From assembly GCA_017557785.1 (NCBI GenBank), contig JAFYYA010000077.1, forward strand, positions 33,004 through 97,003: a DNA stretch of 64,000 nt, written 5' to 3'. The notes under the pieces are model-generated. The model did no database searches. It saw only the letters and a program-made list of their open reading frames with translations, and was not told the origin of the DNA. The position numbers and the translations under genes were made by a program. Source of the DNA: Salinivirgaceae bacterium. GTDB taxonomy: Bacteria; Bacteroidota; Bacteroidia; Bacteroidales; SZUA-534. This document shows positions 61,222 through 64,000 of the stretch, one piece after another. Positions within the stretch are counted from its first letter, which is position 1. Each line of letters opens with the position of its first letter.

Positions 61222-61252
61222 GGCTGTCGTTCTTATCGGCAGCCTGTTTTTT
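61222..61252 (+). terminator. Terminator of the Lrp-type gene
   Basis: GGCTGTCG pairs with CGGCAGCC (one G-U pair) over TTCTTAT, then GTTTTTT. Confidence 0.85.
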
Positions 61253-61276: not shown

Positions 61277-61675
61277 TTATCGCAAACATATTTTCTCCTT
61301 CACCTCGCCATCGGCTATCGCGAAAGCGTTGAAAACAGGTTTTTCGCCAGCGAGCGACAGAATGAAATACAATATGTTAGGGTCGAAAGCCAGCCGAATG
61401 TCCTCTGCCGACGGCCGCGAAGGCGTTGCGGGGTGGCTGTGCCAGTTGCCTACAATCACCAGACCGTGCTGCCGCACGTATTTGACAGCCGCAAACTGCT
61501 CTTTCGGGTCGAAACTGAAATGCTCCGCGGACTGGTCGGTGTTGCGCATTGGGTAGTTAAGCGTAACAGTCTGACGGTCGGGCCCCAGCAAGTAGCCGCA
61601 CGATTCCATTGGGGCATCGCGGCGCGCTTGCTCCAGCAGCGACTGGTAAGCCTCGTCGGTAATTGTCAGTTGCAT
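61277..61675 (-). CDS. JAMM/MPN metallopeptidase (HcyD/QbsD-like)
   Basis: A 132-residue JAMM metallopeptidase. Metal ligands and catalytic residues are visible: Glu24 (PMESCGYLLG), His79 and His81 (HSHPATP), Ser89 and Asp92 (HxHP-x6-SxxD). It is the last gene of a five-gene minus-strand operon. In other bacteria such proteins cut one or two residues from the C-terminus of small ubiquitin-like sulfur carriers to expose Gly-Gly, and release cysteine- or homocysteine-type products from the carrier. The carrier in this operon has a masked tail (GGGAF), which fits that role. Direct substrate is inferred. Confidence 0.85.
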   Translation of the reverse strand: MQLTITDEAYQSLLEQARRDAPMESCGYLLGPDRQTVTLNYPMRNTDQSAEHFSFDPKEQFAAVKYVRQHGLVIVGNWHSHPATPSRPSAEDIRLAFDPNILYFILSLAGEKPVFNAFAIADGEVKEKICLR

Positions 61676-61900
61676 TTATTTCTGAATGGTAACCTTATGA
61701 ACGGCACCCTCTACGTGTGTGACACTCAACACCTTATAACCCTGCTCAATGGCTGTGCGCGGCACATTGGCAAGCGGTTCGCCTTCGCTGAGCAGCACCT
61801 CAAGTATGTCGCCTTCGGCAATCTGCGACAATTTGAGTTTCGTCCTGACAAACGTCATCGGGCAGTGGTCTTTTGTAATGTCTAATGTGTGTGTGGCCAT
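61676..61900 (-). CDS. TusA/SirA-like sulfur transfer protein
   Basis: A 74-residue TusA-family protein. The Cys-Pro pair that carries persulfide in this family is at 13-14 (DHCPM), followed by VRTKLKLSQIAEGDILEVLL, the usual fold pattern. It abuts the JAMM gene with no gap and is 101 bases from the DsrE-like gene. In the operon it probably receives sulfur and hands it on. Confidence 0.88.
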   Translation of the reverse strand: MATHTLDITKDHCPMTFVRTKLKLSQIAEGDILEVLLSEGEPLANVPRTAIEQGYKVLSVTHVEGAVHKVTIQK

Positions 61901-62001
61901 ATTTATTTGTGATTTAGTGGTTTACATTTATGGATTGAACGCGTTCACATCGATTTTATTCGCTAAAGTAATTGTTTTTATAAATTGTCCATTATCAACT
62001 A

Positions 62002-62481
62002 CTAAATAAACAAGGTCTGTCCGCCTTCGGATATCTCAAGGAACGTCGCCACTCCCAGCGTGTCCTTCACCTCGTGGATAAAATCGGACTGCTTGAGTCC
62101 CAGAACGTGCATTGCCATCTCGCAGGCGTACAGATTGACACCCAGAGCCGTGGCGGCCTCAACAAGTTCCTCGAGTGTAGCCACGTTTTTTTTGCGCATC
62201 AGCGAGCGGAAAATGTGCGGACCGAGACCGCAAAAGTTGAATCGGCTTGTCGGTGCCGTGTGCAGGCCGCCAAGCACAAAGCCAAAAAATTTTGTAAGCC
62301 AGTTGCCGCCCAGAAACGCGTGGCCGCGCTTCTGTTTGATTGCGTCGAGCCCCCAGAAGGTGAAGAAAATGTTCACCTCGTAACCCACCGCAGCAGCGCC
62401 AGTGGCCAGCGTGAACACGGCCGTCAGTTTGTCGAATTCGCCTGAAAAGGCTATCAATGAAAGTTTCTTCTTCTCTGCCAT
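62002..62481 (-). CDS. DsrE/DsrF/DrsH-like family protein
   Basis: A 159-residue soluble protein of the DsrE/DrsE-2 family (small sulfur-relay fold). Cys84 and Cys120 (NLYACEMAM) are present, with Cys120 in the position that often carries sulfur. It starts LSLIAFSGEFDKLTAVFTLA, then VGYEVNIFFTFWGLDAIKQ. ATG 62481 (MAEKKKL) is preferred; an upstream frame runs 30 residues into the MoeB-like gene. It joins TusA- and E1-like proteins, in line with sulfur transfer. Confidence 0.85.
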   Translation of the reverse strand: MAEKKKLSLIAFSGEFDKLTAVFTLATGAAAVGYEVNIFFTFWGLDAIKQKRGHAFLGGNWLTKFFGFVLGGLHTAPTSRFNFCGLGPHIFRSLMRKKNVATLEELVEAATALGVNLYACEMAMHVLGLKQSDFIHEVKDTLGVATFLEISEGGQTLFI

Positions 62482-62521
62482 AGTCGTAATGCCTTTCTGT
62501 TTTACAATTCCATTATCCCCC

Positions 62522-63340
62522 TCAATCCTTCTTGCCCGTTGCCAGGTCACAAGCGCTTTGTTCATAATCAATTAACTCTGTCACTGTCGGATTTTTGCCG
62601 CAGAGCGGACAGTTGTCGCGACGGTGGACGTTCACTTTTCTGAAATCCATCGTTTTCGCGTTGAATGTCAGCAGTTTGTCGGTCAGAAGGTCGCCAATGC
62701 CAGTGATATATTTCAGCGTTTCGGCGGCCTGGATTGTGCCCAGCATTCCAGCAATGGCGCCCAAAACACCAGCCTGCGAGCAGGTTGGAACGGCGTTTGC
62801 CGGCGGTGGTGTCTTGAACATACAGCGATAGCAGGCGTGCCCTGGAACGTAGGTAAACGTCTGTCCCTCAAAGCGTAAAATACCACCGTGACTGAACGGT
62901 TTGCCTGCCATCACGCACGCATCGTTGATTAGGAATTTGACGGGGAAATTATCGGTTCCGTCAACCACAAAATCGTAGTCTTTAACAATATCGAGAGCAT
63001 TGTTGGCACGCAGAAAGTCCTGATACACATTAACTTTTACGTGCGGATTGATAGCGGCAATCGTCTCCTTTGCCGACTGCACCTTCGGCTTACCAACATC
63101 AGGGGTGGTGTGGATAATCTGACGCTGAAGGTTGCTCAAGTCAACCACATCGCCATCCACAATGCCAATGGTGCCCACTCCGGCCGCAGCCAGATACATC
63201 GCCACTGGCGCGCCCAATCCGCCCACGCCAACAACCAGCACCTTTGCCGCAAGTATCTTTTCCTGGCCCTCAACGCCCACATCCTTAAGCAGAATGTGGC
63301 GCGAGTAACGGTTCAACTCTTCTTCAGTATAATCGTACAT
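62522..63340 (-). CDS. MoeB/ThiF-family E1-like adenylyltransferase (HesA/MoeB type)
   Basis: A 272-residue E1-like enzyme. The nucleotide loop GVGGLGAPV is at 38-46; the zinc site has CYRC at 170-173 and a later CPLC near the C-terminus; the Cys in the MoeB/ThiF catalytic position is Cys187 (VPTCSQAG). It adenylates the C-terminal Gly of the small carrier so sulfur can be attached. It is the second gene of the operon, 26 bases after the carrier gene. MoeB, ThiF and HcyF cannot be told apart by sequence reading alone. Confidence 0.9.
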   Translation of the reverse strand: MYDYTEEELNRYSRHILLKDVGVEGQEKILAAKVLVVGVGGLGAPVAMYLAAAGVGTIGIVDGDVVDLSNLQRQIIHTTPDVGKPKVQSAKETIAAINPHVKVNVYQDFLRANNALDIVKDYDFVVDGTDNFPVKFLINDACVMAGKPFSHGGILRFEGQTFTYVPGHACYRCMFKTPPPANAVPTCSQAGVLGAIAGMLGTIQAAETLKYITGIGDLLTDKLLTFNAKTMDFRKVNVHRRDNCPLCGKNPTVTELIDYEQSACDLATGKKD

Positions 63341-63366
63341 AGATTTGTTGTTTAATTCACTAATGC

Positions 63367-63579
63367 CTAAAATGCGCCACCGCCCATAAAATACAGAAAA
63401 TCAACCGAATCGCCTTCATTTAGCTTGGTTGTGCCGAAGTCCTCGCGTTCGACAAATTCTTCGTTCACCTGAACGCTAACCATTTCTGGTTCAGACACAT
63501 TGTTCAGCTTGATTAGTTCCGATACGGTTATCGGCAGTGCAACTTCCTGTTTGTCGCCGTTTACTGTAATTACTGCCAT
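63367..63579 (-). CDS. ThiS/MoaD-like sulfur carrier with a masked C-terminus (GGGAF)
   Basis: A 70-residue ubiquitin-fold carrier. It starts MAVITVNGDKQEVALP, like ThiS, and ends FMGGGAF. Functional ThiS or MoaD ends in Gly-Gly; here two or three extra residues follow, so the tail must be trimmed before E1 can adenylate it. I checked the codons: ATG GGC GGT GGC GCA TTT TAG on the minus strand. A JAMM peptidase gene lies in the same operon. Known parallels are QbsE/QbsD and HcyS/HcyD. The acceptor of the sulfur is unknown. Confidence 0.9.
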   Translation of the reverse strand: MAVITVNGDKQEVALPITVSELIKLNNVSEPEMVSVQVNEEFVEREDFGTTKLNEGDSVDFLYFMGGGAF

Positions 63580-63745: not shown

Positions 63746-64000
63746 TCAATTTCGCTCACTTGCTCTCAATCCAACCTTCTCTTTCTTATTGATTTTGCGG
63801 TAGAACCGAATGGCGTTCTGACTCTTTCTTGCCGCGCGGTTAATGGTTCTGACACGTGCGGCGAGTTTGCGGAACCAATTTTTGGGAACAAGGTCGCTCT
63901 GGCCTGGCACGTAGCCGTTTTGGTCGAGAGCGCGAAGTTTGACAAGCGCTGAAAAAGCCGACAATGCCACGTCAATGCACGATTGCCCTGGCCCCGCAAT
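63746..64000 (-). CDS. C-terminal part of a protein that runs off the window
   Basis: The frame is open from the right edge to TGA at 63746, giving 84 residues. It reads GPGQSCIDVALSAFSALVKL at the start of the visible part and ends with a basic tail (INKKEKVGLRASERN). I do not recognise the family. A GTG within (63970) is probably not the real start because the frame continues upstream. A 165-base gap with no gene separates it from the sulfur-carrier gene. Confidence 0.6.
   Translation of the reverse strand: MAGPGQSCIDVALSAFSALVKLRALDQNGYVPGQSDLVPKNWFRKLAARVRTINRAARKSQNAIRFYRKINKKEKVGLRASERN

Follow-up and report, generated by a model that had tools for sequence, protein, structure and literature searches.

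We report five adjacent genes that we read as a paralogous cassette, standing by itself, of a route to cysteine or homocysteine via a protein thiocarboxylate; we give this reading a probability of about 75%. The genes lie near the right end of a 64,000-nucleotide stretch of DNA from a Salinivirgaceae bacterium (G000:C52:33004-97003, in the following “the window”), whose right end is also the end of the contig. The genome, G000, is an assembly resembling a metagenome-assembled genome (MAG), with 153 contigs that total 3.0 Mb (completeness 94%, contamination 7%), and its nearest named relatives are MAGs mainly from the ruminant stomach, labeled Salinivirgaceae or Bacteroidales. The argument is built on gene content, conserved residues, a rule for the carrier end, linkage and selection. 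All five genes are on the minus strand, in the order carrier, E1, dsrE2, tusA and jamm:

63367..63579, minus strand: ThiS-like sulfur carrier, 70 amino acids, ends FLYFMGGGAF; Pfam ThiS 44.7 bits, TIGR01683 61.6 bits (cut-off 37.45)
63370..63375, minus strand: the two codons for the masking residues A69-F70, with predicted cleavage behind G68, where both profiles stop
62522..63340, minus strand: E1-like adenylyltransferase of the MoeB/ThiF type, 272 amino acids; Pfam ThiF 281.3 bits
62002..62481, minus strand: DsrE2-type sulfurtransferase, 159 amino acids; Pfam DrsE_2 133.3 bits
61676..61900, minus strand: TusA-like sulfurtransferase, 74 amino acids, CPMT motif with Cys13; Pfam TusA 66.7 bits
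61277..61675, minus strand: JAMM/Mov34 metallopeptidase, 132 amino acids; Pfam Prok-JAB 89.5 bits

The Pfam matches of all five proteins exceed the curated cut-offs, and this is in agreement with a preliminary description of the window which had named the same five genes. The E1 consists of a ThiF domain only, without a rhodanese domain, and its closest solved MoeB is 1jw9 (196 bits); a solved relative of the JAMM protein is 2kks (126 bits). For dsrE2 the start was corrected to the ATG at 62481, which is preferred over an upstream TTG, and the protein scores 73 bits with NF047629, below the cut-off of 210.

The residues expected to carry the chemistry are nearly invariant among distinct sequences whose alignment covers 85% or more of the window protein. 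The metal and catalytic residues of the JAMM protein (E24, H79, H81, S89, D92) occur in 75 out of 75 relatives, and the E1 zinc ligands Cys170, Cys173 and Cys244 in 87 out of 87, with Cys247 in 86. Cys187 of the E1 is found in 85 out of 87 sequences, the remaining two having Ser, and Cys264 near the C-terminus also in 85 out of 87. The JAMM residues, Cys187 and the zinc Cys pairs had been pointed out in the preliminary description, and they hold across the relatives. Complete conservation is further observed for Cys13 of TusA (53 out of 53), Cys120 of DsrE2 (58 out of 58) and G66-G68 of the carrier (identical in 76 out of 76).

The carrier does not end in Gly-Gly, as had been noticed before. 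Since both the Pfam ThiS and the TIGR01683 profile stop at G68, we regard A69-F70 as a tail. The closest solved relative, 2k5p/3cwi (E 1.5e-12), has FLYFMGGG in common with the carrier, and the GGG end of 1tyg_B, which we take to be Bacillus subtilis ThiS, aligns to G66-G68 in a weak match (E 0.14). We counted tails in ThiS-like genes from 80 relatives and a Bacteroidales sample. From 218 rows 155 were left after exclusion of three with an incomplete C-terminal match (two of them genes near thi genes, without Gly-Gly), six that came from short duplicate loci and 54 whose carrier core repeated that of another row; related MAGs were kept as separate rows, and because rows share descent, Fisher values overstate the significance. 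A tail is present in 73 out of 74 distinct FMGGG carriers, in none of 61 distinct ThiS near thi genes and in none of 20 other carriers ending in SGG, TGG or AGG. The tail is thus a family rule among FMGGG carriers.

Tail length ranges from 1 to 40 residues, with two residues in 37 FMGGG carriers. The first tail residue is most often Ala (20) or Gln (17), followed by Ser (10), Arg (7), Cys (7), Gly (5), Thr (2) and Asn (2), with Trp, Met and Lys once each; Asp, Glu, Val, Ile, Leu, Pro, Phe, Tyr and His were never seen in the sampled FMGGG carriers. Five tails read AYV, with the open reading frame (ORF) of the carrier overlapping the E1 start (e.g. L024), and such an overlap may shape some tails. 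The preliminary description had taken the AF tail to differ from those of described systems. We rejected AF as a special feature, as it occurs in 4 out of 74 carriers and is one tail among many.

To the locus counts the best 80 of 210 confirmed relatives contributed. Genes were called by bit-score thresholds alone, without a coverage filter, and 18 of the 80 loci are shorter than 9 kb, so that gene absences are upper bounds. The E1 is present in 80 loci, ThiS in 77, JAMM in 71, DsrE2 in 61 and TusA in 58; the complete five-gene set recurs in 55 out of 80, which rules out a chance association. The same loci contain cysK (54), an encapsulin (51), a cysteine desulfurase (CyD; 50), a metY-type gene (39) and a cysE-like gene (10). 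The earlier proposal to look in relatives for a linked pyridoxal phosphate (PLP) enzyme proved fruitful: cysK and/or a metY-type gene accompany 64 out of 80 loci. The acceptor, for which cysteine, homocysteine, a cofactor or a tRNA had been considered, is narrowed by this linkage to those of CysK and MetY-type enzymes. The gene order is also regular, with cysK directly upstream of thiS in 49 out of 54 loci having both and the encapsulin directly downstream of jamm in 46 out of 49. All 51 encapsulin loci contain DsrE2, and none of the 19 loci without DsrE2 has an encapsulin, which hints that DsrE2 connects the shell and the carrier; DsrE2 without encapsulin occurs in 10 loci, the window-type copies included.

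The cassette in the window has its paralogous counterpart in an operon of the Bacteroidales with the order cysK-thiS-E1-dsrE2-tusA-jamm-encapsulin(2B)-cysteine desulfurase. Genome G000 has three cassettes, and its ThiS-family matches are the three cassette carriers only. On contig C94 of the same genome a metY-type gene (minus strand) is divergent from the full operon. Its encapsulin matches NF041163 (family 2B) with 560.9 bits (cut-off 400) and its CysK scores 462.9 bits (cut-off 351). The CyD is a SufS-like cargo with an N-terminal extension, reaching 537 bits with TIGR01979 (sufS-type desulfurase, cut-off 475) and 697 bits with NF041166, the model for encapsulin 2A cargo, below its cut-off of 800. 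A family 2B shell with desulfurase cargo is thus present in the C94 operon and absent from the window.

The neighborhood of the window copy includes part of a gene here called c14:

63746..64000, minus strand: 3' part of c14, truncated where the contig stops; identity to L007 95%

The remainder of the only c14 found in G000 starts contig C94 beside metY (99% identical to L007; 92 bp missing). The window cassette is therefore probably near metY across a contig gap of about 92 bp. Because the lone c14 splits between the ends of C52 and C94, the likely order is jamm-tusA-dsrE2-E1-thiS-c14-metY on a single strand, with cysK and the second cassette transcribed divergently. In G003 (L118) the full operon is located between genes whose starts match, by eye, those of the acyltransferase, folE, fabD, lrp and c14 of the window, and the window cassette seems to occupy the same place. 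The c14 gene is found in the same nine out of 11 genus genomes as the cassette. Its product (L007:2431-3138) has about 235 amino acids and a hydrophobic N-terminus, and in relatives the gene adjoins the metY-type gene and cysK. No Pfam match was obtained for c14; an invariant His (GNGHIAVMVG) followed by an invariant Cys (GPGQSCIDVA) in five out of five aligned sequences presumably resembles the pattern of permuted papain-fold amidases.

In a comparison of four genes, the window copy shares 97-98% identity with the copies in L004 and L005 and 87% with the C94 copy, and a group made up of window type and C116 type has 100% support. The ratio of nonsynonymous to synonymous substitution rates (dN/dS) among window-type copies is 0.05-0.07, meaning that the cassette is under strong purifying selection. 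Between G000 and G007 the dS of window-type copies (0.24) exceeds that of the main operons (0.05), which suggests that the cassette moved between strains. The copy in L004 adjoins a pstS-like gene and another gene which by eye resembles a porin gene; that porin-like gene also adjoins the L005 copy, at a contig end. In both, thiS is cleanly absent (L004:5915-6001, L005:950-1034), with the E1 directly after an upstream stretch common with the window.

The distribution of the operon was compared with that of sulfur assimilation genes in 11 genomes of the genus and 247 Bacteroidales genomes. Nine of the 11 genus genomes have the E1 (E<=1e-60), and the same nine have the encapsulin and a pair of CysD- plus CysH-type PF01507 proteins; CysD, CysH and CysN were named from Pfam matches, lengths and gene order. 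Siroheme sulfite reductase (NIR_SIR) was found in none of the 11, with 11 out of 14 control genomes positive. Genes of the type cysD-cysN-cysH are nevertheless present in this genus (L228, L229, L230, L231, L232, L233), and in G001 and G007 such genes are near the main operon. Beside them no sulfite reductase was recognized by eye in the six loci, in which many ORFs are unnamed. Conversion of sulfite to cysteate by CapA was rejected as the fate of sulfite, as NF053679 gave CysK-like matches only and none over the cut-off in the 11 genomes. In the order, 13 out of 247 genomes have the E1 (E<=1e-85), and in 10 of these an FMGGG carrier is present at the fetched loci; in G014 the E1 is in a thi cluster, and in G031 and G093 it has no adjoining carrier. 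An encapsulin over the cut-off occurs in five out of 247 genomes, a sixth match being weak and broken. All five are among the 10 with an FMGGG carrier, the encapsulin being on the same contig as the E1 at a distance of about 1.8 to 20.5 kb.

The nine genus genomes with an operon CysK have it besides a second one. In a tree of 37 rows hand-picked from loci, eight fetched non-operon genes form one group (99/97) and 23 locus CysKs another (90/81). The operon CysK of L083 sides with the eight non-operon genes (94/94), and L111, L114 and a non-adjacent L052 gene are unplaced.

The chemical steps, and the PLP enzyme served by the window copy, we infer as follows. The JAMM protein would cut the carrier between G68 and A69, removing AF, and the E1 would adenylate G68. 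Sulfur could reach the carrier as a persulfide on TusA and DsrE2, giving carrier-COSH, with the encapsulated cysteine desulfurase of the main operon as its presumed ultimate source. The dedicated CysK with O-acetylserine would form a carrier-Cys adduct, the MetY-type enzyme with O-acetylhomoserine a carrier-homocysteine adduct, and a second JAMM cut would release the amino acid and regenerate the carrier. The preliminary interpretation therefore stands in part: genomic context supports a masked-carrier route akin to the Qbs and Hcy systems, a likely role of TusA and DsrE2 in donating the sulfur and a narrower choice of acceptor, and the distinctive AF tail falls away.

The encapsulin shell presumably stores sulfur. 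The conserved operon around the shell, with DsrE2, TusA, E1, masked carrier and PLP synthases, names a concrete candidate exit path for the sulfur of family 2 encapsulins with cysteine desulfurase. We tentatively extend this to a bacterial “sulfur bank”, an idea that is possible and that we would sooner bet against than for. The desulfurase would fill the shell with sulfur, which DsrE2/TusA, the E1 and the tailed carrier would later take out in the form of a protein thiocarboxylate; CysK would use this for cysteine or the MetY-type enzyme for homocysteine, the latter amounting to transsulfuration without cystathionine. With its encoded tail the carrier would mimic its own adduct with an amino acid, and a single JAMM activity could then both unmask the carrier and release the product, and duplicate cassettes might serve the two acceptors separately.

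Several observations weigh against the thiocarboxylate pathway to cysteine or homocysteine. The last 10 kb of the window showed no PLP enzyme of the pathway; the link to sulfur assimilation is clear for the C94 paralogue and many relatives, and for the window copy it runs solely via the contig gap. The adjacency to metY joins two contig ends over about 92 bp in an assembly with contamination, and compared with L007 one c14 piece is 95% and the other 99% identical, which calls for caution. In L004 and L005, close relatives, the window-type copies lack thiS, and L114 has the lone FMGGG carrier without a tail, which is JAMM-linked. The metY-type protein is below the cut-offs of all 25 NCBIfam models shown (best 312 bits of 495 needed, methionine gamma-lyase 265), so its reaction is unsure. 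Neither cysK nor metY is present in 16 out of 80 loci, some perhaps through short loci, and a CysK-like gene away from the operon exists in 11 out of 11 genus genomes. Finally, making cysteine with sulfur that a desulfurase has taken from cysteine would be circular; the objection falls away if the enzyme works for storage or for homocysteine.

Among the alternatives, the window cassette may merely add to the dosage of the C94 operon or serve another, unlinked acceptor. This is compatible with the pathway proposed here, and we consider it a doubtful but real option. The missing PLP enzyme of its own within the window is in line with it, as are the related copies elsewhere (L004), two of them without thiS; strong purifying selection and the position at the place of the G003 full operon, probably near metY, point the other way. 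We think it improbable that the system is one of ubiquitin-like conjugation, in which the E1 attaches the carrier to proteins, the JAMM protein removes it and sulfur transfer is secondary. The portion of Iyer et al. 2006 (PMC1779556) on JAB-linked E1s proposes such a reading, among NCBIfam models the JAMM protein comes nearest to a desampylase (71 bits, below the cut-off of 130) and JAMM1 is a solved relative (44 bits). The regular company of TusA, DsrE2, cysK, the metY-type gene and encapsulin-CyD in the 80 loci argues against conjugation, and no E2-like gene was recognized in the locus gene lists, to which no search aimed at E2 was added.

A supply of sulfur for tRNA 2-thiolation, similar to TtuB/TtuC, appears even less probable. 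Escherichia coli TusA is described as taking part in tRNA thiolation, and deletion of the Thermus JAMM gene halves tRNA thiouridine and alters TtuB conjugates; the linkage seen here is to amino acid synthesis, and no thiolase gene was noticed in the locus gene lists, with TtuA, TtcA and MnmA not specifically searched for. A carrier for thiamin thiazole or molybdopterin was rejected as the least likely role, despite the TIGR01683 ThiS equivalog score over the cut-off, by which NCBIfam would name the carrier ThiS, the thi clusters around more distant E1s of the order (L115, L117) and ThiG matches of 22.6-25.6 bits tallied as over the Pfam cut-off of 23 in 11 out of 11 genus genomes, a point that also counts against our preferred pathway: these matches are partial and borderline (positions 127-221 of 247 only), MoaE is found in none of the 11 genomes, ThiC, ThiG and ThiH exceed the bit-score threshold in none of the 80 loci, and thi-linked ThiS lack the tail. 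Linkage to thiamin or molybdopterin genes only, named in the preliminary description as contrary to its view, was accordingly not seen.

Other features were noted around these loci. Between lrp and jamm a consensus scan gave a weak signal, six such sites being found vs a shuffle mean of 4.9:

61222..61244, plus strand only: terminator-like hairpin

Riboswitch control was rejected, since Rfam at gathering score gave nothing near the operons in seven loci except two Acido-Lenti-1 matches, in L004 only (L004:1899-2101, opposite strands); in the window the scan gave one tRNA. Loci without DsrE2 often adjoin heme-like and thioredoxin-like genes (by eye) and a siroheme-synthase-type gene. NIR_SIR proteins with a C-terminal TusA fusion are encoded at L108:4058-6379, L113:4698-7058 and L114:9446-11824. 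In L108 and L114, from two other families, the fusion adjoins a full cassette, in L113 an E1 without carrier or JAMM, and a direct hand-over of sulfur from the fusion to the carrier system is plausible. Genes for a PstSCAB-like transporter recur in sulfate-assimilation or E1 clusters (L004, L228, L229, L233, L074, L107, L113; pstS-like called by hidden Markov model, the remainder by similarity or eye), and this “phosphate” transporter may carry sulfate here. Recurrent neighbors of CyD or cysH are an esterase, a protein resembling ATP-grasp enzymes (L106, L118, L231) and, in L084, L228 and L231, a PlsC-like acyltransferase next to what looks like a GNAT; these presumably recall glycine-lipid synthesis.

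The pathway suggests how a genus without detected siroheme sulfite reductase may make cysteine and homocysteine, and some genes automatically named “ThiS” are probably not thiamin genes. Among known systems, a close parallel in gene content is the Wolinella succinogenes homocysteine route (HcyS/HcyF/HcyD/MetY), reportedly described by Krishnamoorthy and Begley in 2011, in which the carrier is said to be masked after its terminal glycine and the JAMM protein to remove the tail and release homocysteine. A ThiS-like carrier masked after the terminal glycine, E1, JAMM and a metY-type gene are common to both; the linkage to cysK and encapsulin-CyD and the lack of a detected siroheme sulfite reductase in the genus set our system apart. 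The thioquinolobactin system QbsE/QbsD likewise has a short tail after Gly-Gly and a JAMM nearby, whereas siderophore genes were not noticed here. Thiamin ThiS differs by linked thi genes and a free Gly-Gly end, and MoaD by its partner MoaE, absent from 11 out of 11 genus genomes. CysO/CysM/Mec+ of Mycobacterium, as outlined in PMC3227635, shares carrier, cysteine synthase and cysteine-freeing protease, while its E1 MoeZR has a C-terminal rhodanese domain and the window E1 is ThiF only.

Operons of this kind are already known, since Iyer et al. 2006 (PMC1779556) tabulate ThiS-JAB-E1-SirA operons with sulfate assimilation and O-acetylhomoserine sulfhydrylase; rows 4c/4e of their table serve as the published template. 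As in row 4e, where the SirA/TusA gene is always present, the window cassette combines ThiS/MoaD, JAB, an E1 lacking rhodanese and SirA/TusA. The metY-type gene that accompanies the cassette in relatives, the CysD/N/H-type genes close to the main operon in G001 and G007 and the NIR_SIR-TusA fusions adjoining the cassette in L108 and L114 agree with that row as well; DsrE2, encapsulin 2B and CyD cargo are additions which the relevant sections and table rows do not name. According to the part of Price et al. 2018 dealing with it, the thiocarboxylate route to methionine was missing from pathway databases. For family 2 encapsulins with cysteine desulfurase cargo the accounts of Nichols 2021 and Andreas and Giessen 2021 report the strongest enrichment among accessory genes for serine O-acetyltransferases and rhodaneses, and “sulfur carrier” and “ThiF” have 0 occurrences in their main texts (supplements apart). 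In the titles and abstract beginnings of the papers listed, with few subscription papers covered, no encapsulin joined to this operon was found. The shell and SufS-like cargo of those papers recur in the paralogous operon, here embedded in a thiocarboxylate operon. New parts are the duplicated cassettes, the dedicated CysK, a genus background in which siroheme sulfite reductase was not detected, and the connection with a desulfurase inside an encapsulin, for which DsrE2/TusA are the probable relay.

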